A DNA stretch of 64,000 bases from Terfezia claveryi (lineage: Eukaryota > Ascomycota > Pezizomycetes > Pezizales > Pezizaceae). The notes under the pieces are model-generated. The model was given only the letters and a program-made list of their open reading frames with translations. It made no database searches and was not told where the DNA came from. The stretch spans positions 558,001 to 622,000 of the forward strand of contig WHUX01000005.1 of the NCBI GenBank assembly GCA_015179025.1. The letters are read 5' to 3'. Positions 3,101 to 58,426 of this stretch are shown one piece after another. Positions within the stretch are counted from its first letter, which is position 1, and each line of letters opens with the position of its first letter. Position numbers and translations under genes: made by a program.

Positions 3101-3148
3101 GCCTTCTGTTGTTACAAGAAGGCTACAAAGTGAACCTCAAACTTTCTT

Positions 3149-3180
3149 CAAGCCAAACTAACTTTCTTCAAGCCAGACTA
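3149..3180 (-). repeat. Tandem micro-insertions with AACTTTCTT duplications
   Basis: Three exact copies of the 9-mer AACTTTCTT (3140-3148, 3160-3168, 3181-3189) are separated by CAAGCCAAACT and CAAGCCAGACTA. The second spacer matches the constant end of the dispersed micro-insertion family (reverse complement TAGTCTGGCTTG). It is either two insertions or one insertion followed by tandem duplication. Confidence 0.6.
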
Positions 3181-3760
3181 AACTTTCTTGATAGCTGCTA
3201 TTAGGCCACGCAAAACAAACTAGAGTTTGTGCCAATACCCAAAGTGATGTTGATGATGAAAACCAGTTGGAAAACCAGTTGAAAAACTAGTTGTAATGCT
3301 TGTCGAAGTTGTGTTTGGTGAGATAGATGTATATCAGAATGTGAAATTGCCCTGTACTTTCAGAGAACGTCACCCCGCACATTCGTGAATTTATAGGCAT
3401 TGTATTCTGCGGCTGACTGCCTATACATGTCAACATACCATAGGTAAGCAGCTCATACATAGGGACGAAGGCCCACCGCTTTTTCCATGAAAGCATTGGT
3501 TAGCATTGTGCAGATGTCGACGCACATGACGGGAAAACTTATGCATGGATTCAGAAAGCAAACGAATTCCCAACAGATGCCGTTGCTTTTTAGCGATTGG
3601 TACAACAATTGATAGGCAACAGAACCAGAGGGGTACGCCCCACGAGCAGGAGAGGGTTCCCTTGCAATATACGTGCCAAAACTTGATATATGATTTTTTC
3701 CAGGTGGGTTTGCGCATTGTCTGTTTTGTGATAAGATGGTCAATCGTCGTCTGGAGATAC

Positions 3761-3784
3761 GAGGGGCTTGTGCCAACCAGACTA
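3761..3784 (-). repeat. Micro-insertion, 24 bp, with 12-bp direct repeats
   Basis: The unit starts GAGGGGCTTG and ends GTGCCAACCAGACTA. It is immediately flanked by two exact copies of GTCTGGAGATAC (3749-3760 and 3785-3796), read as a target-site duplication. The exact boundary is ambiguous because the duplication begins with bases resembling the element end. Confidence 0.7.
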
Positions 3785-4407
3785 GTCTGGAGATACCTAG
3801 AAAACTTCAGCAGCACACAACAAGCTCTTCCGCTTTCCCTTGAAATATGTGGGATAAACTGCAATACGCAATACAGTACGCAGCACCATGGCCCTTGGCA
3901 AGTTGGCAGAGTATTGCTGAATTAATATCCATGTCGCTCCGTACCGTACCGAAATACCCACATAAAACACCACCGACTCTCTGCATAATAATATATCCAC
4001 TAATATTTTATCTTTCCTGCTGCCTCGAGCCCCTCCCCACCCCACAGAATGTCTTGTGAGGACGGCTTTGGAAGTCGCAATTCTATTCCCAGGGCTTGAT
4101 TTGATGATGGTGAGTGCCCTTGCACGTGGTAGGAGAGTCTGCTAAAAGACCCTATGCTAGGTTGTTCTGACGAACGCATTCACTCTTGGCGCATGAGACT
4201 AATAAAATAAATGGCGCAGCTAGTGATGATTATGTAATTTGGTTGACGTGAATACGAACATGCCTTCAAGTATACATGACAATACAATACAAATCATTCC
4301 ACAAATCAATAGATCTAGGCGTAAATTTTTCAAGAAGTGGATACTAATAGACATGTCAAATATCCTCAAATCAAATAAGGCAGAATTTTTCCTTGGAAAC
4401 GATATTA

Positions 4408-11443: not shown

Positions 11444-13036
<1,593 letters not shown>

Positions 13037-13401: not shown

Positions 13402-13510
13402 ACTCCGTACCTGAAATATGTTTTACCGACTTGGCGCAGGAGGTAGGAGTGAGAACCCTGCATCGCAGTTGGCACATCGCAGCCCAGGCAACAGGCAGCC
13501 ATCAGCCCAT

Positions 13511-13580
13511 CAGCCATCAGCCATCAGCCATCAGCCATCAGCCATCAGCCATCAGCCATCAGCCATCAGCCATCAGCCAT
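13511..13580 (+). repeat. Ten perfect copies of CAGCCAT
   Basis: A 7-bp unit is repeated ten times without error, with imperfect copies just before it (13496-13510). An open frame through it reads repeated ISHQPSA-type residues, but this follows from the repeat and is not taken as a protein. Confidence 0.95.
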
Positions 13581-13631
13581 CAGCAGTCATCTCCACTCGT
13601 TTTCATACTGGGCAGGGCATCCATCTTAGAT

Positions 13632-13647
13632 TGTGCCAACCAAGACT
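13632..13647 (-). repeat. Micro-insertion, 16 bp, with 9-bp target duplication
   Basis: TGTGCCAACCAAGACT is flanked by exact ATCTTAGAT copies (13623-13631 and 13648-13656). It is a variant of the family core with one extra A, and sits about 80 bp upstream of the next gene's start codon. Confidence 0.75.
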
Positions 13648-13728
13648 ATCTTAGATTCGCATCCTGAATGTCCGCAAGCCGTTGCACGCACCATAGCGGC
13701 TAGCTTCTTCCTGCCGAACTACGAAGTC

Positions 13729-14424: not shown

Positions 14425-15106
14425 TGTTATAAGAACTCAGACGCAACAGAAGTCGCATTGTCAGGTGGCGGATGGTCATTCGGTTGGAAAAATAGGTACC
14501 CTCAGGCAACCAGTCTACATGTTTCTTTGCAACTGTTTCCATAAACTCTTTCATACCCTTCCTTTCTGGCACGGTCTCTGGTACTATTTGTTTTGTTGCG
14601 TTCTCACGCATGCTTGTATATCAGATGTATTTTGCTTGATCCCGTTAATGTTTTTTTTCTACAATGGTCTTTATGTTGTGGCATGATTGCTAGACTGTAA
14701 CATTATTGTATTGTCTGTTTGGGATTATATAGTATCTGGGTGTTATTAACACTATACTCTTGCTATATGAGCGTTGCTCTATCTGCAACCAGATCAATCT
14801 ATAGTCTGGTTGGCACATCAATCTAGTTTTGCCTGCGTACCACATTCAGCCTAGCCCAGCCCGTCTTGGCGAAGAGGTTCCACGAATCGCAGCAGGCCCG
14901 ATTAGTCCATCGTCGACTGATATTCACTACATCTCCACTCACTTCCGTTCTATTTCTGTCTAAAGCGAATACTATCTGGTACGAGCATTTCCGACTCCTC
15001 CGCTGTCTTCATCCTCCCCATCCTCTGCAACGTTGTTGGCATGAAGTAGCTTGGCTAATATTTACCATTCCAGAAACCTACGCTTTAAAATCACTGCGCC
15101 GCGAAA
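14425..15106. other. Spacer upstream of COX9
   Basis: Contains the micro-insertion at 14802-14816 and the COX9 promoter side. No other gene seen. Confidence 0.5.
14802..14816 (+). repeat. Micro-insertion TAGTCTGGTTGGCAC with 9-bp duplication
   Basis: The 15-bp unit is flanked by exact ATCAATCTA copies (14793-14801 and 14817-14825). It is identical to the insertion at 55046-55060, and this pair defines the 15-bp class of the family. Confidence 0.8.
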
Positions 15107-16599: not shown

Positions 16600-18869
<2,270 letters not shown>

Positions 18870-25176: not shown

Positions 25177-25190
25177 TAGTCTGGTTGGCT
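25177..25190 (+). repeat. Micro-insertion motif, no clear duplication
   Basis: TAGTCTGGTTGGCT matches the family core. Only TACA repeats on both sides, so the insertion boundaries are not established. Confidence 0.45.
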
Positions 25191-28436: not shown

Positions 28437-28690
28437 TTTGGTATGTGTTGTTATAGTGTTGTTGTAGTTTTTTTGGTTTGTTTACATCTAATTGACAGTG
28501 TGTTTGACAGAGATTTTTTCCGTCAGTTAAACTGACAGACTAGAGGACTGTCAAAATGCATAAGCATGGGTTGTGCAGACAGTCTAGCCTACTTAGTAAT
28601 GTTGCTGTAGAAACAACACTAATATCTGACAGATGAACTGACTGACCAGGGTGTACAAAATCCCTCTAATATTATAGGATGGGTGTTAAG

Positions 28691-28738
28691 TAGTCTGGCT
28701 TGCACTAGCCCCTCTAGGGGCTAGTGCAAGCCAGACTA
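28691..28738. repeat. 48-bp palindromic micro-insertion with 10-bp duplication
   Basis: Two 23-bp perfect inverted arms (starting TAGTCTGGCTTGCAC) meet at a 2-bp centre, CT. The palindrome is flanked by exact GGGTGTTAAG copies (28681-28690 and 28739-28748). It looks like two family ends joined head to head and is the longest member seen. It lies 24 bp outside the Harbinger right end. Confidence 0.9.
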
Positions 28739-29086
28739 GGGTGTTAAGCAGGCTTTCTCTCTGAGAAAGGAATATGAGATCTGTCAACCGCTTTTTCCAA
28801 AGCATGTATGTTTATGCTCTTGCTTTTCCGCACACTCCAACTCAACTCTCCATTTTCAAGACTTGGTTGATACTATCAGTCAGGCACAAGAAGGACTTAA
28901 ATATTATCAGCAGAAGCATAAGGTTCAAGCATCACTTAAGGACTTCTGGGTTCCAACTTCCTCTTCCTCAGGTACCCCGTCCAGTTCTGCTAATTAATTT
29001 TCTATGCATATATTTTTTTTATTCTTGAGATTGCTTGTCCGGTCTGGTTTACTATTTGTCCAGTATAGCTGTACAGTCACAGCTTG

Positions 29087-34452: not shown

Positions 34453-34491
<39 letters not shown>

Positions 34492-40046: not shown

Positions 40047-40720
40047 GGTGCAGCAACCCTCTCGTATGGCCGAAGATCGATCTCTCGTTGTTGTTGCTCG
40101 CTCCCGTAACCAACCCTTCCGTTAGTTGAGATTCCTCTAGACTCGGTGGAGCACAGTATCTGGTGAGCGTTGTTCCGAGAACTTCCAATTCCTGTGGACT
40201 TGTTCCAGAACACCGTTCAAGCACATCAAGCCTTGGGCTATATTAATTAAATTGCACTCTGCGGCAGTGGCTTCAAATAGAGAATGATGACCTTCTCTCC
40301 TCTCAGCGCCCACGCACGACGATAATTAACGAGTGAGGGATGCGCACAACTGCAAGCTCCTAACGAAAAGTGCTCCGATGGAGAATCGGACAACTGCAGA
40401 GATGGGACAGAGGCCAGCAAACTCTATCAAATGTAGCTGCCGGGGCTCATTGGGTTTTAAGGGAAAGGTAATTGTTTGTCGGCCTGGGACCTGCAGCCAC
40501 GGGGGGTTCTCGCAGAAGGATAAGGATATGAACGGCAAGTACCCCCTGGCCCACCTCTTGCCTTGCGAAAATGCCATTTAATGAGACGGCAAGCACTTCA
40601 GGGCAAATTCTTACAAAACAGTCCAAGCACGGCGAGCATACTTAAACCGCTGTGGGGTGTTTGGCGTTCGAAGATTCCAAAGGCGGGAAAGGTAGCTACA
40701 AGGCCTGTCAAGCGAGCTCT

Positions 40721-40731
40721 CTAGTCTGGTT
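40721..40731 (+). repeat. Micro-insertion CTAGTCTGGTT with 9-bp duplication
   Basis: The 11-bp unit is flanked by exact GCGAGCTCT copies (40712-40720 and 40732-40740). Confidence 0.8.
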
Positions 40732-42306
40732 GCGAGCTCTCCACAATTCGGATGTCTTAAAATAAGTTGGCTACTTTACGGTTAGGCAAATGAGATGGCA
40801 GGCGATTGGTGTCCGGTGATCAAGAATTCGGGGGGTTACATGATCCCTCACAACACGCAATTACAAAGGAACTACCTCTGCACAAGGAATACAATGCTTT
40901 GGTCACGTCCATCGCAGACAACGCCACCTCTACATAATGCCACAGCTCCAGGGTAAACAAAAAGTAGGTGGCGGTGGGGTGATGCAACCGGCATATACAG
41001 TGCTCAGTATCATGCTTAGGTGTGCCGCATTCTGCAATGCAAGTAAGCTTGCTTGTGCAGGGTGCATTGATGTAGGGTCTCTTCACACGCTTACTAGACG
41101 ACAGCTGATAATCTTGATGAAACCGACAAGAGAGGAAGAACGAAATAATGATGGAGACTGGTCACCACAATCCTTTCACCTGAGGCTGATGTTCCGGCTG
41201 TTGGTCGGCATATTTCCACAGCGAGTTCGCAAGACATGCTACATGTATATAACTAGCTAAGGATCGCCAAAAGCAAGCACTTGCGCGGCCCTGGTTGGCT
41301 AGCACAAATGTTTACAACAGCTAGACATGTCTCTTCACGGTCAATTTCTACAGTTACAGTATAACAAAATGGATCACAAGTGTTATTTGATCTGAGTTTG
41401 ACCTGTTGCCCATTGGAACTACATACCTCTACGCATCGCGAACTACGACACATGAGCACGTGGGTGAAGCTTCTGCCCCTTACGAATGCCCTACATATCG
41501 GATCATCCTAGTTCATTTTGACTGCCTTTGGGCAAGTTATTTGACAAGGTTATGTGTAGCACAGTTCGTAGTCTCCAGAAGTTCGAGGCCGGGCGAAAAG
41601 GACATGTCCTTACCCTTAAAGAACCTTGCTTCCGAAAAATCCGCAACCAGATTAAATTGCCTATAGAGTACTTCTTGCAGAAGTTTATTCTGTCCACGTA
41701 TACCCACCCACCGGTTATTGATTGATTCCTAAAGTGACCTGTGCTGGGCTCCAATGAATCTCCTCCGCGCCCACCAGCTATCAAGGTCACACCGTTGAAT
41801 TGGAAGGTCAAATGGAAGACCCTGGATCGAGACTATTGACCCTGGTTCAGGGGACATGAGCACTCGTAATCTTTCCCATTGGTTGCAGCTACCTTTACGT
41901 CCACCAGAGAGTAAAATTGCATGACAACATGGCTCAAGCTCCTGAGCAGACCCACGTAGTGAAACCAAATCATCTGCCCGGCTAAACATACATAACACAG
42001 CCAGAATTTCCTCAGGACCAGACGATCTACCTAGGTACACTCCCCGTCCACCAGCCGCAAGTTCAATCACGGTAGAGGGATTCTACATCTGCTGAAATTC
42101 AGGGTCGACTTGCATAACAGATACTTCTACCTCTAAGGTGCAGCCTGTACCGGTATTTTCTCATTGACCCAGGCGGCAGGAAGATATGCGGGAACTTTCT
42201 GTCGGTAGGATCAGACATGGTGGAAGAAATATGATAAAGAAATATGATACCGATTAGCCATCGGAAGTCGTTTGTAAGCTTCTCTGGGGATCTTCATCGC
42301 ACTGAC

Positions 42307-42747: not shown

Positions 42748-42757
42748 AACCAGACTA
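42748..42757 (-). repeat. Micro-insertion AACCAGACTA with degenerate duplication
   Basis: Flanked by GCTGAAATG (42739-42747) and GCTGAATGT (42758-42766), which align if one A is dropped; an older member of the family. Confidence 0.5.
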
Positions 42758-43573
42758 GCTGAATGTTCATTCGAGATTGCGAGTGGTCCATTATTTGGTT
42801 CTTACTTAGCATGTGATGTCAAGGGATCTGGGGCACATCTTCAACTGACCGCCCTGGTCCCATGGGGTTCGATAACGAACAATTCTTGATATTAATCTGT
42901 TCAATTCAACGGAGCAGTTATCACTCACTGGGATTCTACTGGTCTCTGAGAAAAGTACAATATACATATCTGAATTCATCTAGGCACTGAATCTGCTGTA
43001 TAAATAGATCAGTTTCGTTGATGCATCTGTGCTCAGTGCCAACATTGTCACTCTTGCTGAAATTTCCAATGGTGAGGTAACTTTCCTGAGTGATCAAACA
43101 CTCAGATGCTTCATACTCAAATTGCGGGATACCAGTTATGGTGGAGTGTGGTTACATGTTTACTTTTTATATGTAAAATCTGAAGTTTTTGTTTGTTGTA
43201 GTGTTTATCAATTCTTGATCAGAGCATTGATGTGCCACAATCATAACCTCCACAGACAACCCTGTGGTATACGTGTTTCTCCATGTGTGCCATATCGCCC
43301 CTGCTGCATCAGAATAGGGACTGTTACTGTATTTACAGGGCGCCTAGGCGCACCACTTGTGCTTTGGTGTTGGCTCTGATGTTCACTCACAGAATTGTTT
43401 TGCCCCGCTGCCCAGGAGCCTTGTCCTGGTTGCTGGTCAAAGGCAATCTAGTTGTGTGTTTGGTAAAGGAATACCAGATATCCCGAGTGCACCCCCTCCA
43501 CTGAATGCCCCGCCACCAAGAATCTTATACCTAGGCTAAGTTCCTCTGGGAATCATTGTCCGGGGATACTTTC

Positions 43574-43583
43574 TAGTCTGGTT
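43574..43583 (+). repeat. Micro-insertion TAGTCTGGTT with 9-bp duplication (8/9)
   Basis: The 10-bp unit is flanked by GATACTTTC (43565-43573) and GATACTTTT (43584-43592). Confidence 0.75.
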
Positions 43584-45455
43584 GATACTTTTCGGAAGGG
43601 ATTCTCTCTTACGAGGTCCCTATATTTAGGCGCCACAGTTCAAGCACCACACTTTGACACGGAATGGAATGAGACGATCATGACCCAGATTCATCCTTTG
43701 CTGCTACCGCAGTTACTCACAAAGTTTCTCTTCAGGTAACTTTTCATTTTACAAGGTGGAGCGGCATTGCTTATCTTCAGCAGCCACCCACCAATACATC
43801 TACGGAACGTACATCATGTTTCACCGAACACTACCTTCGTTTTCTCTGGAGAGTAGCCATAAAGACCCCCTCAGGGTAGGTATACCTATACCAGCCAGCA
43901 CCAGGTGCGCCCTGCTCGTGCGCCCATTTTTATATTCGAATTATTATTGGTTCCTGCTCCACAAGTGCGGGAGTGCGCATGAAGCTATCATGCTAGTATT
44001 GACATATTGGGAAAGTTCAACAGTAGTGGTGGCGTTTGCCTTTTATCGTTTCCGCTGGAGAAGGAGGTCCTCTATCACCATAAATTGCATGATGAACGTG
44101 CCATCTTAGGGTTTTAGTATTGACATATGGGAAGGTGCGGATATTTTGCCCAAAGTGCCTAATATTCCCCCCAATATGATGCCTAAGCTAATAAGTACTC
44201 GGCTGTAGTTGCAGAAGAAGGGGTGGGCGAGGTAAAGTGCCCGGGTCGCGGAAAATGCAAGCGTCATGTGGATTGTTGACAGTGGACATCCTGTCACTAA
44301 CTTAGAAAAAGTTAGCAATCAGCTACCTTAGAGATGTATGTTCTTAACCATGTTTGTGCCCCCAAGATGCAAAATTAGAAACGATGAGGGTGGGAAGGGA
44401 TATAGATTTATTTTTCCAATTTTGCATAGCTCGAGATGGTAAACAAGTAGTCCTTTGGCTCTATACATTCTGTCACTTATCAGTCATTTAGAAGACTCAC
44501 TCATATACCCCACTCATCAAGGAAATTCGCCTACTAAAGTCGCAATAGTCGCGCGAGAAGGTGACGCCTAGGCCTTGCGTCTTAATATCATAGATGTTCC
44601 ACTGCCCATACCAATTACATCCATCCTATTCTGACCCGTTCTTTTTAAAAACATGACAGTCGTATGCCCATGATGATAGCTATTCCACAGCCAAAGTTAC
44701 CCTCAACTTCCGCTTTTCCATTTCTATCCCTTTCCCCCTTCTAATTTCTCCTCCGTCTCCCCTCTTTTCTTCATAATATGTTATACATTACTCTTGCCCC
44801 CTCCCCCCCTGCCATTCGCTCTCCCATACGTACTGTCCCACACTAGTCTCTCATTGTCACACCTCACTATCGCTGCTGCTTTATTGGAACACTGGAAACC
44901 CCACATAACTACATAGCCCAGCCGTAGGGACTCAGGAAGACGTAGTAGAATTGATTTAATACCATATTCACCAGGGAGGGAGTAGGAGTTCAATGTCACC
45001 AGGGAGGGAGTAGAGTTCAATGTTTTCGAAGACGAGGGAGCTCTCCATGCGTAAATGGGATGTAGATAGCCAGGGACTTTTTTGTAGGTAGCTGTGTTTG
45101 CGGTGTTTTCTGTACTCAGGCTTTTATGTGTAATGGAATGTGTAGAGAGTTAAAATGGATATCTTGTTTAAGAACTGATGCAGTCACACAACGAGTTAGG
45201 GTAGTTTATGTGGCAGGTATTATACAGGATATTGGTTTGACAGAGGAAGGAAGAGAGTGGATTTGCGTATTGACGGGTAATGGACTTCGCAGTGACGGCT
45301 TTTATCATGTTTCTTTTACCCCGATTGGCATTTCATATTCCAATACAGTTCATACAGTATTTTCGGGTCTTGTACAGTTGTATTAGGATAGTTGATTTCT
45401 GCCCGTTGGTCCGTGGGGGGGTGTACCGAGTCCTTCAAGATGAGGGAATGCGGCC

Positions 45456-45932: not shown

Positions 45933-47215
45933 CACTCAAACCTTGCTATACCGGAGCTCGCTATAGCAGATCCCTTGGTATACCAGACGGCTCAAGCCAA
46001 AATTTGCCAGTTCTAGCAATTTAGGTGAGGCATCTACTTGATATACCGGATACCGTACCGGATGGGCTGGGAAGGGGTTACAGGGATTATCACAGGGATT
46101 ACAGTATCACAGGTAAATGTAATTGCTATAACGAAAATAGCAGTACTTAGTACTCTGTACTCATCAAGCATTCAAATTCAAATATTCTTCTAGACTACTC
46201 ACAATCTCCCCCATTTCCATAGCCAGTTACAATAACCCGCTACACCGCAACTACCATTTCTCCATTTTCCCAATTTCTCCTTCAATGTACCTTATGGCCA
46301 TACCCGTACTTTCCACAAGAGCCTCCAAAGCCTTAATCACATCTGCAGTATCTTTATTATGTTCTAAGAGATATTTGAGCTCTCTCAGCTCCCGCTCTCC
46401 TCGTTGCTGGATATCAGGTAGTTTCTCCATTAGTGTGATAGTTACATTTTTTCTTTGGTTAATGAGAACTTCTTTTTCAAGTTCTTTGATAATGAAGGCT
46501 GCGTACCCTAGCTCGGTTGCCAGTGTAGTTAAACGGGTTATAATGTCCATATTATCGGACGATATAGTTTGTGCTTGTGGTGGTGCTTGTGGTGGTGCTA
46601 GCGGTGATGCTTGCGGTGGCGCTTGCGGTGGATCTAGTTTCAATAGATGTAGTGTTTAGGAGGCTGGAAGCAGGGTGAGGGTGATGCTTCAGGCAACTTA
46701 TATATTTTCAGATGTTGAGGGTCATACAACCTACACAGGAGTCATGCTCAACACCTCTGGAACTGTTTAAAGACCTCATGACCACATACTCTGGACAAAA
46801 TACTATCAAGAATTAATAATAAAAAGTAATATTCCAGGCCCAAAAAATTTCCAACAAACTAGCTAATACACCGACCATCGAAATGGCACAGCTTCGACTT
46901 CAGAGTGATCCGAAGGGCCATTCCACCGTTTAGCTGGTGGCAACGCAAAAGTACTGAGGGAAATATGCTCACTAATAGCCAAACCTAACTACCCGTAGGG
47001 CGGGGGAACGGGGTTCACCACCAGACTTGGATTGAGAAACAGAAGGGCAGGATTAATGCGTATACTGATAGGGCATGATGGTACTGACTGATGCACGTGT
47101 GCACCTCGTATGACCGAGCAACTTCACGTCCCCGCGCTGTTTGCTATACCGGATATTAGCTATACCGGACAGATTGCAGCAGATATATGCAATCCGGTAT
47201 AGCAAGGTTTGAGTG
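45933..47215. mobile_element. Non-autonomous pogo/Fot1-type element with its own ORF
   Basis: 23-bp perfect inverted ends (45933-45955 and 47193-47215, beginning CACTCAAACCTTGCTATACC) with TA on both outer sides, 1,283 bp. Extra GGTATAGC-type subterminal copies lie near each end. No transposase is present, but a 130-aa frame lies inside. The TIR style (TTGCTATA) and TA target are those of Tc1/pogo elements. Confidence 0.8.
46251..46643 (-). CDS. Predicted small coiled-coil protein inside the pogo-type element
   Basis: 130 aa, intact. Residues 1-25 are a Pro/Gln/Ala repeat (PPQAPPQASPLAPPQA). The rest is almost wholly helical with heptad-like spacing (IIKELEKEVLINQRK; LREL KYLLEHNKD split by charged residues; VIKALEALVE). 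No catalytic motif is seen and it does not look like a transposase. Its position within terminal inverted repeats suggests a cargo or accessory gene of the element; expression is unknown. Confidence 0.5.
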   Translation of the reverse strand: MKLDPPQAPPQASPLAPPQAPPQAQTISSDNMDIITRLTTLATELGYAAFIIKELEKEVLINQRKNVTITLMEKLPDIQQRGERELRELKYLLEHNKDTADVIKALEALVESTGMAIRYIEGEIGKMEKW

Positions 47216-47271
47216 TACTTGATATACGCGGTTATATTAAGTATTATAAGAAAAGGCTCCACGTCGAGATC

Positions 47272-47297
47272 CACGGAGGGATCATGCAACCAGACTA
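47272..47297 (-). repeat. Micro-insertion, 26 bp, with 9-bp duplication
   Basis: The unit begins CACGGAGGGATCAT and ends GCAACCAGACTA. It is flanked by exact GTCGAGATC copies (47263-47271 and 47298-47306), 48 bp outside the pogo-type element's right end. Confidence 0.8.
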
Positions 47298-47420
47298 GTC
47301 GAGATCTAATTAATGTATTGCCCATGTAATATTCTGTGTGGACGGGCTGGCCAAGACTACCTCATAAGGTCATATGAACAAGCGTTAAAGACTAGGTAGT
47401 CTCGATCAGACCATCGTAAG

Positions 47421-47430
47421 TAGTCTGGTT
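47421..47430 (+). repeat. Micro-insertion TAGTCTGGTT with 9-bp duplication (8/9)
   Basis: Flanked by CATCGTAAG (47412-47420) and CCTCGTAAG (47431-47439). Confidence 0.75.
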
Positions 47431-47585
47431 CCTCGTAAGTTAAAGACCGGTAGTTGAGAAGAGGATCAACCTTCATCACATGGTCATAGAAATAATAGAT
47501 TAGCCAGTCTGTTTTCTATGGGGGGAGTTGCGAGGTCACGAACGCTACAAAAATATTAACCTGGGTACGAGGCTAGGAATAGATT

Positions 47586-47601
47586 AGGTCTGGTTGCACG
47601 A
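47586..47601 (+). repeat. Micro-insertion AGGTCTGGTTGCACGA with 9-bp duplication (8/9)
   Basis: Flanked by GAATAGATT (47577-47585) and GAATAGATA (47602-47610). Confidence 0.65.
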
Positions 47602-47779
47602 GAATAGATACTGTCTCTCTCCCACAGCAGCTTACTGAAAACATCACTTAGAAATAAGTCTAGCCTCCCCCACTACGGGAATCGTCGGTAAAATTTACTG
47701 CATGCACACATCTCCCGCGGATGGCGTCCTGCTCCCACCCGGATCCGAAGATAATTTTCACTCGGTTCATAAAAAATAT

Positions 47780-47783
47780 AAAA
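47780..47783 (-). terminator. Pol III terminator of tRNA gene
   Basis: A TTTT run starting four bases after the discriminator base on the minus strand, followed by further T-rich sequence. Confidence 0.65.
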
Positions 47784-47786
47784 GAG

Positions 47787-47883
47787 TGGATAAGCTGGGA
47801 ATTGAACCCAGGACCTTCTCAAGGTTTACATTGTCCCCGAGACAACATGCGAATGAGAAATCATACCCCTAGACCACTTACCC
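47787..47883 (-). tRNA. tRNA-Ala(CGC) with a 25-nt intron
   Basis: Folds as a full cloverleaf: acceptor GGGTAAG/CTTATCC with a G3-U70 wobble (the alanine identity pair), D-arm GTC..GAT, anticodon stem TCTCA/TGAGA with loop TTCGCA-T, variable loop AGGTC, T-arm CTGGG-TTCAATT-CCCAG, discriminator A73. Anticodon CGC reads Ala codon GCG. The 25-nt intron lies after position 37, the canonical site, and contains a small hairpin, TTGTC..GACAA. The mature length is 72 nt. It may be a true gene or a tRNA-derived repeat; the intact stems and terminator favour a gene. Confidence 0.75.
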
Positions 47884-49071
47884 CCTTGGTTACATACAAA
47901 ATTATCTTTTAAATAAAGAGTGATATAAGCCTAAGGTGAAAGAAAAAGTAAAGAAGTCAGTGGGGCTGCTGGCCATGTCGTGTCGACGTTTGTTGATCAT
48001 GCTGCTGAGCGTTATCACAACTTTCAATGGTGAGCTTCTGATTTCCTATATGTAAGCTAGCAGGTAGCAACTTGCAGCGTTAAAAATCCCTTACTCAGAA
48101 TATCTATCTCCATATCCAGTTAATGCCAACCCTGTGGACACACTCCCGACACTTTCAAAAGCGACCCTGGTGGATCGTGAAAAGGTTTCTCGAAGCCAAC
48201 AAGAAGAAAAGAACTCATCTACAAGAACAAAGTCGGTGGATGTCATTTTCTACAGCCTACCAAAGAAGAGCTTTTAAATCATCCTTACAAACCTATCTAG
48301 GGTGTGGTATGCCAGCGGTGACGAAAACACCATGTAGGACTTATTGATTATCTGTCTTATAATATTAATATTTCCTTATCTCGCAGCTCCTCAGAAAACC
48401 ACTTGTATAACTCAACTGCGATGAATGGGCTGATTAAGGAGTTGAATCCCCCTGACAGGAGGACGCACCGTGATCTCTGCAATTGACTACCGCGTCATAT
48501 ACTCATCCACTTGTGAGTCACGAAATAGATAACTTATTATCCACGCCACTTGAGGTATTTCCGCCTTACGCATATGACATTCCTAAAGATATCCTTCTAC
48601 ATCTCTCCTTTATATCCGGCTACAGATGCTCTTAATTCAGTATCCGCCCATGTTTTCAATGGCAGTGGAGGATAGACCAATCATTCATGCTAATATGTCT
48701 GAGGATACCCATCATTCCCTCTGGGATAACTTGAGCTATACAGACGTGTTCCCATTCTTAAGGGGTATAAGCGGTCCCTCATTGTGCTTCGAATACCAAC
48801 GAAATACTGTTGACGACTATTCGTCGGCGACTACGGTACTGCGGAGAAGGCCCGCCAAGATTTTTGTGGGGTAGTCTCGAACCCGACCGCTCCTAGGTGT
48901 CTGGGGAGGAAAAAGCAGAACCAAAAGACATAGGAACCGCATTTTCAGGTTCATGCAGCCCAATTTTTTAATGGAGAACTTCCGTTCCTATTATTTGGGT
49001 GTGAACAGGCGGGACTAGGGCTGTGTTCTGTCTGATAATTCATACTACTCAATGTCTCCGTCCCGATAATC

Positions 49072-49400
49072 ATTGCTATGATGCAACAAGCTCTTCCAAC
49101 CGAATCTCGATAATGAGGACAGTGATCAACATCCTTCAATGTATGAGAACGTTTCAGCACTAGTTGCCAAAGACCCGGTACAGTTAATGCACCTCTACTC
49201 TTGTCCGAAGGGAGTGAAGTTTATGATACCGCGAGGGGTAGTGCAACCAGACTAGATATACCCTACGATAGTGTTAAACATATTCCCTTAAGTGAGGATC
49301 TTAAGGAGCTATATGATCTAACCTCGAAAGAGTAATCAGCTCACGTAATCGATTTACAGAGAGCCCCTCCGTATAGGTTCGCTCATGTATATGCACCTTA
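49072..49400 (+). repeat. Diverged duplicated segment, copy A
   Basis: Aligns with 50390-50700: shared blocks include ATGATGCAACAAGC, ATGAGGACAGT, TGCCAAAGA and GAAAGAG, in the same order. The reading frame is destroyed. It contains a micro-insertion (49231-49254) absent from the corresponding place in copy B. Confidence 0.75.
49231..49254 (-). repeat. Micro-insertion, 24 bp, in duplicated segment A
   Basis: The unit begins GCGAGGGGTAG and ends TGCAACCAGACTA, and is identical over 24 bp to the copy at 55063-55086. Flanks ATGATACC and GATATACC are a degenerate duplication. Copy B of the segment lacks it. Confidence 0.7.
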
Positions 49401-49695
49401 TGTTATCCACATTGAACCCCATAGACCTAAAGGGATCTTTTGAAAGGCCTGCAATAGATGTACAATTATGGAATTGTATACCGGGACTTATGATGGCCTA
49501 ACATTATCAGGGAAACCAATGGACTTGACTGATATGGAGAATTCAAGTCCTAAATTTAGAGGAAGGTTTTTATTGCAAGAAGACCGACATCTACCTGGTG
49601 GCTAAGATTGTGACCATCTATTTGATCTACAGTCCACACTAGACTGTGGGGATGCAGCACAGGGACAAAAGTTCTGGAGGCCAGTTCTTCAACTA

Positions 49696-49784
49696 CAGTC
49701 AACTCTTGCTATCGCTATAGTGGTTTTGCTATACCGAACAGAAAGCTCTGGGTTACTGCCGTCCGTAATAGCAAGAGTTGACTA
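49696..49784. repeat. 89-bp MITE of pogo/Fot1 type
   Basis: Inverted ends (49697-49712 and 49768-49783, AGTCAACTCTTGCTAT) with TA at both outer flanks. The tip sequence resembles that of the larger element at 45933, suggesting the same superfamily. Non-coding. Confidence 0.8.
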
Positions 49785-50389
49785 TAGAGATGCATTGAAT
49801 GATCCCTGGCTGCAAGGTACAGACCTTGCAGCGATCTTTTGCTTTCTTTGCTGTTTGCTTTTTTTGCTTCTCTCCACTTTGCCTTTTCCGGTTTGCTGAG
49901 TATCTAGCACACAACAAGCTCTTCTAACTGGTACCCCCTAAGGCCAGGTACGTGTATTCCTTTCTTGTGGCCGCACCTCCCCTATATAAAGACAACATCG
50001 TTAATTAACCCCGTAACTTTCATCTGTTGTATGTTCTCATCTACGCTAGAATGATCTTCCTTGTTTCTTACTTTGACGTTTCTTATACACGTTTGCTATT
50101 CTAATATGGGTACTTTCTTATACTCAGGTATTGGGTCAGCCTAAATATGCCTTAATATATAATATTGTATATTTTGGGGGTGAAATTTCCGGTCCTTCTA
50201 CATGCCCCCCATAGTGATGGAATTGATATATCATATATACTACCCGACTCCGGTTCACAAAATCATTCCAAGCTTGGAAGTATATACAGAAAGCTGATCT
50301 TGACAGACTGTATGGCCTTAACCATCAACGTATGTGGGACACCAAGCTAGGCCGCCATTTCTCCTATCTCCCGCTGAACTCTTGATAGT

Positions 50390-50700
50390 CTTGCTATGAT
50401 GCAACAAGCCGAACATAATCTCGATTATGAGGACAGTAATGAATATTTTTCGATGTTTGAGAACTGTTTATCCCTTGCTGCCAAAGAGCTACGAGAGGCT
50501 TGTGCCAACCAGACTACATTTAGTGCACATCTACTCTCGTCCAAAAGGAGTCAAGGTTTTAAATACCATACGAAGGTGTTAAAACAGAAGGAGATCTCAA
50601 AAAGCTATTGATCTAATCATGAAAGAGCAATTGACTCAATATAATCAATTTAGGAGGGAGCCCATCGTAGAGGTCCGCACTACACTTGCACCCCATGGGG
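50390..50700 (+). repeat. Diverged duplicated segment, copy B
   Basis: A partner of 49072-49400. It keeps a 71-aa open frame (50396-50611) beginning MMQQAEHNLDYEDSNEYF, but part of that frame is created by the micro-insertion at 50493-50516, so it is not called a gene. The ancestral function is unknown. Confidence 0.7.
50493..50516 (-). repeat. Micro-insertion, 24 bp, in duplicated segment B
   Basis: The unit begins GAGAGGCTTG and ends GTGCCAACCAGACTA, one base different from the copy at 3761. It is absent from the aligned position of segment A. No clean duplication remains. Confidence 0.65.
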
Positions 50701-51786
50701 TATATTATAGTACTTGTGCAAAATAGCTTGAGCACGCGAGGGCTCGGACAAACAACTGCAACGCGGTACAAATAAGGTTTGTATCATAAATGGACCAAGG
50801 AATTGTGGAGTGGAGGCAATAGCTGCACTGTTGAAATTGTTGAACTGACGTATTGCCCGGGCCTGCTCGGCTTTGTCATCGGAGTTGCTACAAACTATCC
50901 TTGAGTGAATTTTTTATCGTAGCTTTGATGATTGTATTGAAAGAGAATATACTTCACTCATTATAAGTGAACAACTGGACCAAAGGTGGCTTGCCGAGAT
51001 ATGCACTCTAGGTTAGTAACTTGTTCTTTTTCCCTCACTTTACTATTTGGCCGGATTGAGTCAGCACCTTCCTTGAATTTTCCAATCAGCGTCAGACTCT
51101 ATGTTTTTTTTGCTAATGCTCCATTATGACCAGACCTAATAATATGTAGTGGCCAAACGAAGTGAAGATTTGCTGATGCAGCCTGTTTTAACCACTTTGT
51201 CAGCTTGGGTTTACTGTACCAAGGTCAGGGTAGCCCGCTACATCAAAAATCTAGATTTCTCATTGGCTGAGGATGATGCAGAATTACCCGGTCCTGCATC
51301 GCATCCAACCTCGCAGTCTACGTATCCAAATAAAAACGTTTTGATTTTTTTTTTCTCATATAGGTGATGTCGTTGATATGCGGGAATTCCGACGTCGTGG
51401 TCAACGCCAATTGCACAGGTTCGCAATTTTTATCGTGTATTCTTCGTATACCCCGGGATTTAAGATAACCTCGTCATACAACTGAATGCGGTAGTATCAT
51501 GTGAATGATTTTTGTTGTCTAACGTATGTCTTGTGTGACATGGAAGCAACAAATAATACATCAATTTAATGAACTTATAATCTTACATCAATGAACAGCT
51601 AGCACCGCGCAGCGTGGACAAAATTAGTAGAAATATTTCAATTCGATCTTACAAGTTGCTTAATACATTATACCTGCGGTTCCCTTAGGGTTGGATGTGG
51701 GGTAGGTGATTCGTAGATGCGATAACCGCGTGCTAATCAAACTGCAACCATTACATAACTCGAATACAATAACTCGCACTGCTAGG

Positions 51787-51801
51787 TAGTCTGGTTGGCA
51801 C
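51787..51801 (+). repeat. Micro-insertion TAGTCTGGTTGGCAC, duplication uncertain
   Basis: An exact 15-bp match to the copies at 14802 and 55046. Candidate flanks AACTCGCAC and CACTCGGCC match only partly. A further weak motif, GGTCTGGTT, lies near 51839. Confidence 0.6.
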
Positions 51802-52568
51802 CCACTCGGCCAAGGGGCACGCCCGTGCCATGCTAACTGGTCTGGTTCCCGAAATAGATCCCTAGTGTCTTAACACCCCCAGCCGGGGGAGTTTTCTTAA
51901 TCCGGGGTAGACGTGAGAAACATAACTCCTGCATAGTACGTCAGATCTCATGGCCCTGCCTAAAGGGGCTACCAATTAGCTTGCGTTATACGGTACATAG
52001 GCTCCAGAACCAGATTTTCACGGTCCCTGAGTGCCGGTACCTAAATGTTCTATTATTCTCTCAGCAAGGAATATCCCGCACGAATGAAGCACTGCCCCAG
52101 CTGGCTCTCATACGGGTAAGATCCAGGATTAACCCGGACAATGCAAAAGGACGCGGATGCAGGTGCCTGAATTGAACAACGCCTCCGGGAGCAACGGTCT
52201 ATCTCATCATCGTTGTGGCAACCTGAGCTCGGTTAGTGGTAAATACGGTAACTTGACCTGAAGCTAGGTCCGCCTCTCCGCCTCAGACTCCGGAAGGCGG
52301 AGGAGTGCCGTACTTGAAGGAGGAGCACTCTCCATAGCAATTTTTTTGTAGATAAGGAATTTCCATAACTTCGGGTTTATGGAGTTCATTTCCTCGGAAA
52401 CTGGTCTGTGCATATCTGTGACGTAACAGAAATCACATGATTCATAGCCCATTCTGGAAGGTCCTTCCCCATTTCAACCGACTGTGTGGGTGCTCTAACT
52501 GTTAGCAGTGCGATAGAATCCACTGAAATCCGAGCGAGCTGTTATCCAAAACGACTGATATTATCCTT

Positions 52569-52871
52569 CTTTTGGAGGCTGATATATATATATATATATG
52601 CGAGACACTCGAGATATATATATATATATAAGCGAGAAACTCATGCTTTTGAGGCTTATTAGTATATATGCGAGAAACTCATGCTTTTGGAGGCTGATAT
52701 ATATATATGCAAGACACTCGCACTTTGGAGATATATATATATATATAAGCGAGAAACTCATGCTTTTGGAGATATACATATATATATACAAGAAACTCAT
52801 GCTTTTGAGGCTTATTAGTATATATGCGAGAAAATCATGCTTTTGGAGGCTTATATATATATATGCAAGAA
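52569..52871. repeat. AT dinucleotide and AAACTCATGCTTTTG complex minisatellite
   Basis: Alternating (AT)n tracts and a recurring block GCGAGAAACTCATGCTTTTG (with GAGGCTTATTAG or GGAGGCTGATAT) repeat several times with variations. Frames across it read Tyr/Ile repeats on both strands and are not genes. Confidence 0.9.
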
Positions 52872-53518
52872 TCTGCAGTACTCCTGCCGTCGTATGGGTA
52901 TTCCTGTATAACGTGTCCTTTTTTACATAATCTGAGACGGAGTCTGGCATTTTGATTTGGCACTTGGTACGGCCTCGTACATGAAATGCGGTGTAGCAGA
53001 GGGATATTGTTTCTAAGTGAAGTTTTGAAGCTTTCCGAGATTGTTGGAGGTTTGGTTGATATTACATCGGCCTCTGAAGTTGACGTCGTCCTAAAACAGA
53101 ATGTTGAACCCCCTCTCGCATATTGAGATGAAATTTCCCTTTTGGAGATAACAATGAGCAACTCCAAATTGCACATGCTCATCGCTCCCAGTCCTTATAT
53201 AATTATAAACGGAGAGCAACTTACGCTGCACGATATCTATCCGACCTTGCGATAAGCTACCCCCACTGCTTACTGGTCAAGTGCGACATGCAACCCTCAC
53301 CTTCAGGCTATATGTAGCATTTAAATCTCCGTCTTGTGAGATGCAGGTTCAAGACACCGATATCTGCATCTACTGTACTGGTCAGAAATGTACCTGACAC
53401 TTTGGGTGAGTTCTGCCTTTCCAGCCCACCAACTGAGCTGCAGGTTAATACTAAAATAAGGTATGTATTCTCTATCAACTCACTCGAGTCTCGTGATGCA
53501 TTATGGGAACAAGGGATG

Positions 53519-53533
53519 GTGCACGCCAGACTA
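53519..53533 (-). repeat. Degenerate micro-insertion motif
   Basis: GTGCACGCCAGACTA differs from the core at several positions and has no clear duplication. Confidence 0.35.
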
Positions 53534-55045
53534 GATACCAGTTGAGGACAGTTCTACCCACATGAGCCATGTGGTGCATGCTCGGAGCCTCAGACCACAC
53601 CATGATAATGCATCAGCTTCAATATCTAGAAGGGTCTGAGGTGCTCAAACTCACTTGTACTTACGCATTACGAAGATACTTCAGTAAAGCTTCTTACCTG
53701 TGGGGTCTCAGCCCATAGTGACTTTGTTATTATGGAAAGGGGGGCTACAGAAAGGGGCTGGAGCAAGCTTCGTATAATATAGATGAGAGAAACGTATACA
53801 CGAGCGCCTTCTTGTGTTTATAAAATAGTCAATTAGCCAGCTGAATGAACTTAAATACCCAACACATAGTATTGGCTTTTGACGTCGGCTACCAAAGTTA
53901 ACTGCCGCGATGTAGGAGGGCGTGTCCTACCTTGCCAGTGGGGTTGCCGCCTATCGGCGACTTGCGGCAACTAGCAACAGCGAAAGTGAATGGCCTGGAT
54001 GCCGAAAGAATGGACATCTGATATGTATATCACTATATGAGTAAGAAGGGAAACATATAATGGGGCGCATGGGGGTCCCGTTTTCAAGACAGCAAAGCAC
54101 CATACGATGTGTGGTTTGAAAGGTTAGAGAATGCGACAAATGAGTGCTCTTTTACGTTTGCTGTTTATGTATTGCATCTGAAATTTTGAAGGCTTATGCA
54201 TCCTTATCGGTGAATCCATGTCTGTGTGCCAGCGATAAGGACAGTGACAACAGCGTGGCTGTGCTAGCATGGGTTTTGGGGAGTCAGGTTTGATTTCGCA
54301 TTGTTAAAAGAGGTGTCGAACATTTTTTCATGATCCCCTAAGCCCTTGCTTTTTCGTAGGATCTCAAATTATAAATGGGACCGTTTTTGCATCGCACTGC
54401 ATAGTGGGGTTATCCCATGTACGGCAGCGGGGGGAAGGTGGGGAAACGGCGAACAAAAAAGGGAAGAAACTCGACATCAACTTCTGTTTGTTTTGGATAT
54501 TCGCGCTAAAGGATTAATTTATACCAGTGACAGTAATGAGACAATCCTCAGAACGGTAAGTAGGTAGGGGTTGGTATATTGAATTACTTGGGTTAAAAAT
54601 ATGATAGCTGTGTTGAAAATGACGTCGGTTGTTCTAGCTGGTGGGGGGAATGTTATTTCTCCACTCTGTGCAAATAATCGATCTTACAAATTGTTCAAAA
54701 ATGTAAGAACTTGTGTCGTAACGGCGAAAAAAATCTTAAGGCCGCATAGCAACAGTCTGGAAACAATAGTGTATAGGTAATTGCCACTCTTGGTGGTATC
54801 AAAACTTAGTCACTGCCATTTCTGTTAAAGAGTATATCTAGATGTGTATCCACATCCGCCACCTGGACGTTTCAAACCTCAGCCTTAAGACGTTTTAAGG
54901 TACTGCCACTTGGGCTATGAAACTCTGCGTATTTTGTGTGCATAACCAAAACGAAATTTAGGCACCCCACTTGCTTAAGACTAGCTCAACAGCTGAGGCC
55001 GAAACATCTATTTCAAGATCTGACCGATCACTTCCTCTGCGAGGG

Positions 55046-55060
55046 TAGTCTGGTTGGCAC
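55046..55060 (+). repeat. Micro-insertion TAGTCTGGTTGGCAC nested in another copy
   Basis: Flanked by exact CTGCGAGGG copies (55037-55045 and 55061-55069). The right copy is also the start of the 24-bp unit at 55063-55086, so this insertion landed in or next to an existing member. Confidence 0.85.
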
Positions 55061-55062
55061 CT

Positions 55063-55086
55063 GCGAGGGGTAGTGCAACCAGACTA
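55063..55086 (-). repeat. Micro-insertion, 24 bp, host of the nested copy
   Basis: Identical to the copy at 49231-49254. Opposite in orientation to its nested partner, so together they form an imperfect hairpin. Confidence 0.75.
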
Positions 55087-56387
55087 CCAATCGGTGACCT
55101 CAATTACCCAACTTCTCTGCCTCCAAGAAACTTAGGAAAGTTGCAACAATTCCTTTTGAATGCACAGCAGCAAAAAAGTTACAACAGATTGGTCACAAAA
55201 AAGTTTTAGAAACGGGGGAATCGTAAATACCTCAAAACAATCACAAGGATTGATCTGCTCAAGACGGCGAAAGCTGGCAGAGCAAACGAGGGGGAATGTA
55301 AGATCCCAGCAAAGTCCTGATTCGGTACTAGGTGTTACCTATCGCTGGAAAATATCTCTCCCCGGGGAAACACTATGGCGGTGTCATTTGGTTTTCAGCC
55401 AGTTGGAAGCCTCTTGTGGCCATGATGATCATCCAAATGCATCTGTTCTTCCGTCTGAATTACGCATCGTTGAGCTCGAGATACACCAATGATTTTCCGT
55501 ATTCATATTACTTTGCGGCTAGTGATGCCGAGATTTAAACCAGGGCAGAAATAAAGTTAAAGGATCCGAATGTACCGTAATATACTAGGTATATGTATGT
55601 ACTGTATATATATGAGTTCCCTAACAAGATGAGATGTATGTCAAAGAAAATTTAGACGGTGTCGAGTGGGAGTGGGTTTCCTTAGAGGTACCTCATTCTT
55701 GAAGGTGTTTCTTTCGGACTTGCTGTAAGGTACCTACCCCTTGAGCTATGGTAAGATGTTTTCTTCTTTCGATCGACGATATCGACAGCTCCCCCACACA
55801 CGGCAACGGAGGGTACCATGTTTGAAGAGCGTGGGGATCTGATATGCCTACCGGTAGTTGCTTTTGGCGGGGGCTCATGCCAACCGATGACTGGCGGGGG
55901 CGTACGGCAGTGTATGTATCGGGGGTGAGAGCCAGCAAAGGTTGCCGAAAGCCCCTTGGAGGCCGGGTAGCGAGGATGATGGTGTTGTCTTGCGTCCGAT
56001 ATCTGTTGTATCAGTGGGCAGGCCACTTCTGAATCGTCGGCGTTCTTGGGGAGCCGGGGGCAATCACACACCTGGGGCCTGGCCCACAGCCACCCCACCC
56101 TCCTTGGGAGTTTACAACTCCAACCTTTGCAACAGCCAGTAGCCCACACACCTCCCGACTTATCTCGCAAATTTTGTGCTCGCACTAGTCGCGCTAAACT
56201 ACGCTTCCAACTCACTGCCCTGACTCAAAAGATTCCTTATAACTCTCGCGCTTGCCCCTCCATTTTCTCTCCCAGAACCCCAGAGCAGTGCTTGGTGACT
56301 TCCACAGGACTCTTCCTTCATACAACTTCGAACTGCTTGTCGTTTCCTGCATTTCTTCCAGTTTCGCCCATTTAATCCTCAGACAAA

Positions 56388-57831
56388 ATGGTACGTTGTC
56401 CTCACTACCGACGAGCATTCACCAGGCGAGCTGCGTATGGCATGGAGTTCCTCCTCTTGCCCACTCTCTCCTCGCTTCCTTGCCCTGTTCAATTGACAGA
56501 TTCGCTAACAGTGTCGAAAAATATAGCCAGAACAGCACTCTGTGTCCAACTCGGCAGCAGTGAGTTACCCACATCATTCTTAATAGTTTGCACTGTTGCT
56601 AACATTCTGAGTTTCAGTTGGCCAAATATGCTTCCCTCGACCAGAAGGGATCCATTCAGGCTGAGTACATCTGGATTGACTCCGTCAGTGGTGTTCGATC
56701 AAAGACCAAGGTTTGTCACCAATGTGTCCCGGAATAATACCATCACAAACATACTAAGACCTCGATTACTCTAGACTCTCACCAAAAAGCCAACTTCCGT
56801 TGATGACCTCCCAGAATGGAATTTCGACGGTTCCTCCACCGGACAAGCTCCCGGCGAGGATTCCGATATCTACTTGCGACCAGTTGCCACTTACCCAGAT
56901 CCCTTCCGTGGAGGTGACAATATCCTGGTTCTCAACGAGTGCTGGAACTCTGATGGTGCCCCAAACAAGTTCAATTACCGACACGACTGTGCTAAGCTCA
57001 TGGAGGCCCACAAGGACCAGAAGCCATGGTTCGGTCTTGAGCAAGAATATACCCTCTTCGACGAGTATGGACACCCATACGGATGGCCAAAGGGAGGTTT
57101 CCCCGGTCCCCAGGGACCATACTACTGCGGTGTTGGTACCGGCAAGGTCTACTGCCGTGACATTGTTGAGGCCCACTACAAGGCTTGCTTGTACGCCGGC
57201 ATCAAGATCTCTGGTATCAACGCTGAGGTTCTTCCATCCCAGTGGGAGTTCCAGGTCGGACCTTGCGAGGGAATCTCTATGGGTGACGAGCTTTGGATGG
57301 CTCGTTATCTCCTCCACAGAGTCGCTGAGGACTTCGGTGTCAAGATTTCCTTCCATCCCAAGCCAATCCCGTGAGTCAACATTTTTGCACTTGTCTGAAC
57401 AAAGGCGGCTAACATTGTACAGAGGTGACTGGAATGGATCTGGTCTCCACACCAACGTCTCTACTGAGGCTATGCGAAAAGAGGGTGGTATGAAGCACAT
57501 TGAGGCTGCCATTGAGAAGCTCTCCAAGCGTCACAAGGAGCACATCGCTGTTTACGGTGACGACAATACTCTTCGTCTTACTGGAAGGCACGAGACCGGT
57601 TCCATTGATCAATTCTCCTATGGTGTTGCCGATCGTGGGTCTTCCATTCGTATTCCACGATCTTGCGCCAAGGAGGGCTATGGTTACTTCGAGGACCGTC
57701 GCCCAGCTTCCAACGCTTGCCCCTACCAGATTACTGGTATTATGATTGAGACGTGAGTGTTCTTTGCCTTAGTAACTTCCTCTATCAATTACTAATTTTC
57801 ATCTAGTATTTGCGGTGGTTTGGACGAGTAA
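56388..57831 (+). CDS. Glutamine synthetase
   Basis: Six exons (56388-56390, 56527-56559, 56618-56710, 56775-57370, 57423-57752, 57807-57831) give 359 aa, typical of eukaryotic type II GS. Landmarks are [43 protein letters not shown] (metal/ATP region), [11 protein letters not shown] and [12 protein letters not shown]. The enzyme condenses glutamate and ammonia with ATP, the main route of ammonium assimilation in fungi. The first exon is just the ATG, immediately followed by a GTACGT donor. The second has eleven codons ([11 protein letters not shown]), and its acceptor follows GCTAAC. This start arrangement is my best model and would be missed by ORF callers. Confidence 0.95.
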
Positions 57832-58426
57832 ACAGGTGTTTTTTTTGGGTTTTTGGGTTTCATTTATTATCTTGTAGACTTTGTACTTACTCATATACAG
57901 TGAATGGCTTGTTCTGAAGGAGTAGCAGCGGAACTTGGGTTTCCATAATTCCCTTTATTTTATTTTATTTTTTTTGTGGTTTCAGTTCAACGATACAACG
58001 GCACGGCTTCAACCAATGGGAGGAATGGGACACTAGTCAATCAATACAGATTGGGAATTTTGATATCCGATTCGCGTTTACAGTACAGTTGGGACATGCA
58101 CAATCGTCTTGCTTTTACATGGGTGTTAAATTTTTTTGTCTTGTTTGTGTCTTGCTTCTGGTATCGATAACATGCAACCGGGTGCCTCCGGCCATATTGT
58201 AATAACAAGCTGAAACTTCTTGACGAGAAGTGAAGTCTGTCGAACGTTAGTCTGGTTGGTAAACGGTACTGCACTGCTAGAGCGCAGGCGTGGCAACACT
58301 CCTGACCAGTGATGTTCACATGAGCTGCGGTGCCTCGGCTGTCAAGGACGTTACGAATTCCCACCATCCAACTCGGGGCAATATCATCAATACATCCAAT
58401 TCCTATTTTCCCCCAAAGCCCACAGA
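57832..58426. other. Spacer GS to dienoyl-CoA isomerase
   Basis: Holds the GS 3' flank and a micro-insertion motif at 58248. No gene. Confidence 0.5.
58248..58259 (+). repeat. Micro-insertion motif TAGTCTGGTTGG
   Basis: An exact core match. Flanks TCGAACGT and TAAACGGT are only weakly similar, so the duplication is uncertain. Confidence 0.45.

Follow-up and report, generated by a model that had tools for sequence, protein, structure and literature searches.

The window analysed here (64,000 nucleotides of Terfezia claveryi contig WHUX01000005.1, which is 911,925 bases long) carries a dispersed family of very short insertions that begin with TAGTCT and often lie between two copies of a 9-bp target. 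The 10-mer TAGTCTGGTT is present in 16 exact copies, counting both strands, while 100 dinucleotide shuffles of the window gave a mean of 0.08 and a maximum of 1. Allowing one mismatch raises the number to 28, part of them chance matches. The initial annotation of this DNA had put the family at 22 copies or more, a figure that holds with mismatches and not for exact copies. It had also listed ten pairs of direct repeats around the inserts, all of which are present at the positions given; the one described as a 12-bp repeat at 3749 consists of the 9-bp TCTCCAGAC followed by a matching GTA. The copies are collected in Table 1.

Table 1. Copies of the TAGTCT-ended family in the window, with their flanking target repeats.
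Feature	Position	Strand	Target repeat and remarks
Two consecutive short inserts, TAGTCTGGCTTG and diverged AGTTTGGCTTG	3140..3189	-	Common 9-bp target AAGAAAGTT, three target copies
27-bp single arm TAGTCTGGTTGGCACAAGCCCCTCGTA (3758-3784)	3749..3793	-	Between 9-bp copies of TCTCCAGAC
16-bp variant arm TAGTCTTGGTTGGCAC (13633-13648)	13624..13657	-	9-bp duplication AATCTAAGA
15-bp single arm TAGTCTGGTTGGCAC (14802-14816)	14793..14825	+	Duplication ATCAATCTA
Candidate 12-bp insert TAGTCTCGGAAA	16497..16526	+	Duplication CCCCCACCG; C-rich surroundings
TAGTCTGGTT copy	25177..25186	+	No recognised duplication
Two-armed 48-bp palindrome (28691-28738)	28681..28748	.	23-bp arms TAGTCTGGCTTGCACTAGCCCCT flanking CT; outer repeat GGGTGTTAAG
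11-bp single arm TAGTCTGGTTG (40722-40732)	40713..40741	+	Duplication CGAGCTCTC
10-bp single arm TAGTCTGGTT (43574-43583)	43565..43592	+	Duplication GATACTTTC/T
26-bp single arm TAGTCTGGTTGCATGATCCCTCCGTG (47272-47297)	47263..47306	-	Duplication GATCTCGAC
10-bp single arm (47421-47430)	47412..47439	+	Duplication CATCGTAAG/CCTCGTAAG
Diverged 16-bp arm AGGTCTGGTTGCACGA	47577..47610	+	Duplication GAATAGATT/A
24-bp family-B arm TAGTCTGGTTGCACTACCCCTCGC	49231..49254	-	Duplication doubtful, GGTATATC/GGTATC
15-bp arm (55046-55060, +)	55037..55086	.	Duplication CTGCGAGGG; adjoins inner end of 26-bp family-B arm (55061-55086, -)
Further TAGTCTGGTT copies	25885-, 30141-, 42748-, 50507-, 51787+, 58248+		No recognised duplication

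The target duplication is fixed at 9 bp, as had been proposed from the window, and locked to the motif. A 9-bp repeat (no more than one mismatch, insert of 6-60 bp) surrounds seven of the 16 exact 10-mers, and in five cases it is exact, against 2.3% of random window positions (n = 20,000), so the expectation that flanking repeats would be commoner than in controls was borne out. The hexamer TAGTCT was accompanied by such repeats in 12 of 45 cases, TAGTCA in 0 of 26 and TAGTGT in 1 of 26, and exact repeats were found for 31 of 91 copies with the anchor at the motif but for only 5-7 of 91 with the anchor one base off. Repeat matches of 10 and 12 bp are consistent with chance extension of the 9-bp duplication. 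The same feature is found beyond the window, at genomic loci read in turn and labelled by L-numbers (L004, L064, etc.). The loci as far as L164 gave 288 rows; 166 of these show the duplication when a single mismatch is tolerated, and 120 show it exactly. For 60 regions chosen by the position of the 15-mer TAGTCTGGTTGGCAC, together with 8 others, the duplication was present in 37 and missing in 34 of 71 rows, a sample that counts two-armed copies once from each end; the window and the 15-mer-chosen sample together gave 49 of 97. In a handful of two-armed copies the duplication is 8 bp long instead (L070, L079, L088 and L164).

The region 41000-55500 of the window has no listed open frame of 150 codons and contains 9 of the 16 exact TAGTCTGGTT copies. 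There is a gene for an INO80 subunit, whose Terfezia boudieri protein is 92% identical, and a tandem array with the 7-bp unit CAGCCAT at 13496-13585. A structured RNA or tRNA as the nature of the repeat was rejected, no match to either being found in the window.

The family extends to the whole nuclear assembly (72.6 Mb in 794 contigs). The genome-wide search that the initial annotation had called for recovered 2,885 exact copies of the 15-mer TAGTCTGGTTGGCAC, almost evenly divided between the two strands (1,432 and 1,453), and none of the reversed control. The window has six of these 15-mers in its 64 kb, a density above the genome average, and because of this we estimate the exact copies of the 10-mer at the order of 10^4. 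TAGTCTGGTTGGCAC is one arm of several, the constant end of the inserts being TAGTCT joined to several arm sequences. A second arm family, TAGTCTCGATCAGAC, has 379 copies (control, 2), and TAGTCTCGTGCCC... and TAGTCTGGTTGCACTACC... share the same end. A scan made with no motif in hand, for exact 9-bp direct repeats around 1-60 bp of insert, again yields inserts that start with TAGTCT (TAGTCTGGTTGGCAC-AAGCCCCTCGTA, TAGTCTGGTTGGCAC-AACACCCTCC, TAGTCTGGTTGCACTACCCC, TAGTCTCGATCAGACCCTCGTAGAGGG, TAGTCTCGTGCCCAGACCCTCTGTTAAGAGG and TAGTCTGGCTTGCACTAGCCCCT), along with many tandem and low-complexity repeats of another kind. Many long forms contain a small terminal hairpin (CCTC-loop-GAGG), which single-strand folding recovered in three of four long arms at modest z-scores (-0.6 to -2.0), and the longest copies run through the hairpin into a palindrome of ~50 bp (e.g., L090). 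A 24-mer had no exact match in genome_contigs, a 17-mer had none in viral_contigs and a plasmid search gave no match. A search of titles and abstracts found no paper describing a TAGTCT-ended family of micro-inserts.

Empty paralogous sites prove that the micro-inserts are true insertions. In an alignment of 21 rows of a Mutator-like terminal repeat, the 15-bp arm in the arrangement AGCAACACT-TAGTCTGGTTGGCAC-AGCAACACT is carried only by L064; the other rows lack it at that position, where L060 has a gap. Two other rows of the alignment share a different 15-bp arm, AACGCGGGT-TAGTCTAGTTGGCAC-AACGCGGGT. A different repeat, with eight copies 83-100% identical, has an extra TAGTCTCGTGCCCAGACCCTCTGTTA plus target copy in five of them and the unfilled site in three. 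Its 15-bp and 31-bp arms are kept in all eight, with only point changes and single-base gaps, and no full-length two-armed allele was found at the shared single-arm sites among these eight paralogs. A separate event is visible in L170 and L171 (C649 and C25), two of these eight paralogs, which compared with L167 have an unrelated insertion of ~53 bp within a micro-insert.

The majority of the copies are single arms, with one TAGTCT end at a target copy and the other end within the arm, and a minority are two-armed inverted-repeat elements of 22-54 bp. The 166 duplicated rows comprise 107 single arms, 53 two-armed copies and 6 multi-insert spans, in a set enriched for two-armed copies, since these were chosen on purpose. 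The least biased set (49 duplicated rows) has 41 single-arm, 7 two-armed and 1 multi-insert row, the 7 two-armed rows amounting to 4 places, one of them picked as a pair. The constant end and the varying other end described by the initial annotation were thus both recovered, with the addition that the second end falls in discrete length classes. For 103 single arms on distinct targets these were 10-12 bp (19 arms), 13-18 bp (32), 19-24 bp (5) and 25-36 bp (47); sampling by the 15-mer inflates inserts of 14 bp or more but cannot produce the gap at 19-24. The 48-bp insert at 28691, which had been taken for a long version of the variable unit, is indeed an inserted unit with a flanking repeat; it is, however, a palindrome of two arms.

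Two-armed copies were searched for by pairs of motifs. This gave 47 copies in which exact 15-mers are separated by 10-40 bp and 52 in which exact 10-mers are separated by 0-14 bp. In 17 of the 47 the whole unit lies between identical 9-bp repeats, and in two more between repeats with one mismatch; the 17 include L085 (two stacked single arms), L075 (flanks that are motif DNA) and L080 (which repeats the flanks of L015). Three others have 8-bp repeats (L070, L079 and L088), and among the remainder are separate inserts lying close together and units with no evident duplication. Among the two-armed copies compared, 25 distinct inserts occupy 26 places and have flanking repeats of 9 bp (8 bp in four). 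One 40-bp form is found on two different targets, AAACAACCC and ACCAAGCTA (L087 and L092), and therefore two-armed copies move. Two ultra-short versions, of 23 bp (TAGTCTGGTTGGCAACCAGACTA) and 27 bp (TAGTCTGGTTGGCATGCAACCAGACTA), appear seven times each in the 50 listed places of the 52. Pairs 41-101 bp apart numbered 24, and those shown mostly resemble neighbouring separate inserts. Terminal inverted repeats (TIRs) at both ends are present in the two-armed minority and absent from the single arms. The description of a miniature inverted-repeat transposable element (MITE), i.e., short, non-coding, with TIRs, a duplication and many copies, suits the two-armed copies and not the single-arm majority. 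The latter, with their empty paralogous sites, have instead the pattern of one-ended transposition: one terminal repeat, a non-repeat second end and a duplication.

At the truncated joins there is no significant microhomology. The comparison covered 57 single arms of recognised family and perfect duplication, with one target counted twice. In 19 of them the base that follows in the family is identical to the first base of the target, and in 18 the insert's final base is identical to the base flanking it, where chance predicts about a quarter; the duplication is therefore 9 bp. The targets have no strong motif and are at most weakly dyad-symmetric, which is suggestive only. With repeated targets removed, 84 single-arm sites gave a correlation of 0.50 over a 7-position half-window (column-permutation P 0.043, multinomial P 0.0005); before removal the values were 87 sites, 0.54 and a column-permutation P of 0.017.

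At several sites, two or three inserts that differ in length or orientation occupy one 9-bp target. One run, L027 (6315-6423), has three exact copies of AACAAAAAT and a shortened one around three inserts of 28, ~30 and 15 bp. Others are L069, L085, L103, L011 and the E4/E5 site of L167 (1668-1739). The numbers are small, and L069 and L085 come from a set selected for close pairs; in less selected material, target reuse is seen at 3140-3189 of the window and in L103. With roughly one insert every few kilobases, coincidences of this kind are expected to be rare, although tandem slippage may be the source of the case in the window. They might point to an integration system that pastes pre-cut end fragments of 10-36 bp with a 9-bp duplication and revisits used targets, building arrays of alternating target and insert, but we consider this unlikely.

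The genome has 21 matches to Mutator-like transposases (PF10551). Three Mutator-like families were read to their ends and have 9-10 bp duplications (TTTGAGAAAT, TTGTTGAGG and CATCTGCAAC). One Mutator-like element, L040 (G000:C773:253033-260787), has terminal repeats of ~2.8 kb made of tandem sub-repeats, the duplication TTTGAGAAAT and a 575-codon open frame with a transposase domain. As it contains TAGTCTGGTTGG in both terminal repeats it was considered as the source and ruled out, its tip being different. A second family (L030 103-2738, and L031) is ~2.6 kb long with 105-bp terminal repeats, the tip CGGACTGACTC and, in L030, the duplication TTGTTGAGG. The window has a transposase gene of its own, of PIF/Harbinger type (DDE_Tnp_4, 26185-27519), in an element at 26083-28674 with 99% identical copies on C28 and C124; it was rejected as the source, being bounded by other inverted repeats, 39 bp long (26083-26121 and 28636-28674). 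Longer elements bounded by the motif and with a matching 9-bp duplication were absent among the subset of loci searched.

We tentatively favour, with a confidence a little short of even, a one-ended (half-site) process in which fragments from the ends of a palindromic micro-MITE are inserted by a putative transposase, Mutator-like by its duplication length. The ancestor would be a micro-MITE of ~40-54 bp with both arms ending in TAGTCT. The putative transposase would recognise this end and cut the target with a 9-bp stagger, and usually one true end would be transferred together with a non-terminal second end, produced by trimming or by hairpin opening near the dyad, after ~10, 15 or 25-34 bp. 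Repair would then fill the 9-bp gaps and leave target, TAGTCT arm and target. Single arms, having no second end, would be dead on arrival and accumulate as fossils, and the few two-armed copies would represent the mobile form. The enzyme, its superfamily and the insertion of single arms as such, instead of by later reduction, are what we infer here. The fixed 9-bp stagger, the lack of a strong target motif and the occurrence of the same duplication around two-ended copies speak for a DDE-type transposase over reverse transcription. Direct integration of single arms is favoured by their excess, by second ends at discrete lengths, by joins that are clean and by the missing full-length allele at shared single-arm sites.

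Several observations weigh against this interpretation. The tips of the three Mutator-like families are GAGATAACATTTG, CGGACTGACTC and GAGAAAACCTTTG, none of them TAGTCT, in a comparison that covers three families among 21 matches, and the full-length element with this terminus that the initial annotation had envisaged was not found among them, nor any transposase-encoding element ending in TAGTCT. Its proposal of a Mutator-like origin thus agrees with the 9-bp duplication and with the 21 transposases present but not with the tips: the inserts behave as a Mutator-type MITE in duplication length and fail the tip comparison, and membership is unproven. In a few inserts (L113 and L014) the last 4-5 bases are those of the opposite end, a feature more in keeping with two-sided repair. 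The target symmetry fades over the 9 target bases alone (permutation P 0.29, multinomial P 0.057) and with a 10-position half-window (0.069 and 0.012, respectively). Finally, the 34 of 71 sampled rows that miss a clean duplication are partly old copies, and others may be imprecise joins.

Chance repeats as the origin are ruled out by the shuffle, reversed-sequence and flanking-repeat controls, and introns or introners appear to be excluded by inserts that begin with TAGTCT next to the target copy and not with GT...AG. The main rival had already been raised as footprints or abortive repair and is possible, if somewhat unlikely. Full palindromic micro-MITEs would insert and be reduced later to one arm, when, after excision or cleavage at one end, repair recopies the arm as far as the hairpin and links it to the target copy on the far side. 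Interrupted gap repair following excision has been described for Mutator and P elements, and it would account for one intact end, a precise far boundary, the stops near the hairpin dyad (25-34 bp, with CCCTC-GTA-GAGGG ends) and the inserts that retain a few bases of the other end. It demands, however, the processing of nearly all insertions, with 47 and 52 exact two-armed copies against 2,885 exact 15-mers and 41 single-arm against 7 two-armed rows in the least biased set. The joins show no significant excess of microhomology, and no full-length allele is found at the shared single-arm sites of the eight paralogs, although the reduction may predate the divergence of these copies. One-ended insertion is therefore favoured over the abortive repair of full copies, neither being proven.

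It is improbable that a small hairpin RNA with the end ...CCAGACTA-3' was copied into the genome by target-primed reverse transcription, with truncation at the 5' end as in long and short interspersed elements (LINEs and SINEs). The constant end, variable truncation, dead-on-arrival arms and hairpin stops do recall 5'-truncated SINEs, and the weak target symmetry leaves room for an unsymmetric reaction. Yet the duplication is motif-locked and fixed at 9 bp where a variable length would be expected, no strong nick-site motif is seen, long copies were absent among the subset of loci searched, and two-ended palindromic copies have the same duplication. Similarly improbable is that two independent end fragments join the two sides of one staggered cut, as in tagmentation, with the hairpin MITE as a by-product. 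Two-armed copies of 15+15, 15+10 and 24+10 bp (L104, L122 and L004) look like such products, and L068 joins arms of two families within an exact duplication. But most two-armed copies have arms of the same family, some with shared variants (CCCTAC in both arms of L014), the recurrence of identical 23-bp and 27-bp forms is that of palindromes moving whole or of duplicated contexts, and the 10+10 form is absent among the 50 listed places of 52.

If the insertion of single arms was direct, eukaryotes would have a transposase that routinely integrates just one true end, 10-36 bp long; the reaction is familiar from bacteria and from in vitro work with oligonucleotides. It would be a steady source of insertions of 19-45 bp (arm plus target copy), and repeat-finding programs designed for paired ends or longer units would be likely to miss it. 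Thousands of inert copies, about half with a recognisable target, make target preference and joining chemistry directly measurable.

The GC clusters and mobile hairpins of yeast mitochondria are also tiny palindromic elements in large numbers, but they are organellar and have 2-bp duplications. Fungal introner-like elements likewise consist of many near-identical short inserts, but introners are spliceosomal introns, while the truffle inserts begin with TAGTCT at the join. 5'-truncated SINEs share the constant end and the truncated, dead-on-arrival copies, and differ from the truffle inserts, which have a fixed 9-bp duplication, no tail seen, lengths of 10-36 bp and two-ended copies. One-ended transposition in the Tn3 family has one true end, a non-repeat second end and a retained target duplication; its elements, however, are bacterial and long, whereas the truffle inserts are eukaryotic, very many, and have second ends that fall at discrete distances of 10-36 bp from the first. 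Natural tagmentation or spacer-like acquisition would be similar in form to a target-reusing integration of fragments, here by a putative fungal transposase. Another likeness is to MITEs of Mutator-like elements (MULEs), which are short and non-coding, with high copy number, 9-bp duplications and TIRs, the last as in the two-armed copies. The truffle units are only 22-54 bp in all, with little but arms, most are one-ended, and no TAGTCT-tipped MULE is among the three families read. In a study of plant MULEs, elements were screened by 9-11 bp duplications (PMC3310237), and solo TIRs are described there as unpaired terminal repeats, with the phrase “death on birth” (PMC3310237). The plant solo TIR is an extra repeat in or beside a paired element, while the truffle single arm is a whole insertion with its own duplication (PMC3310237).

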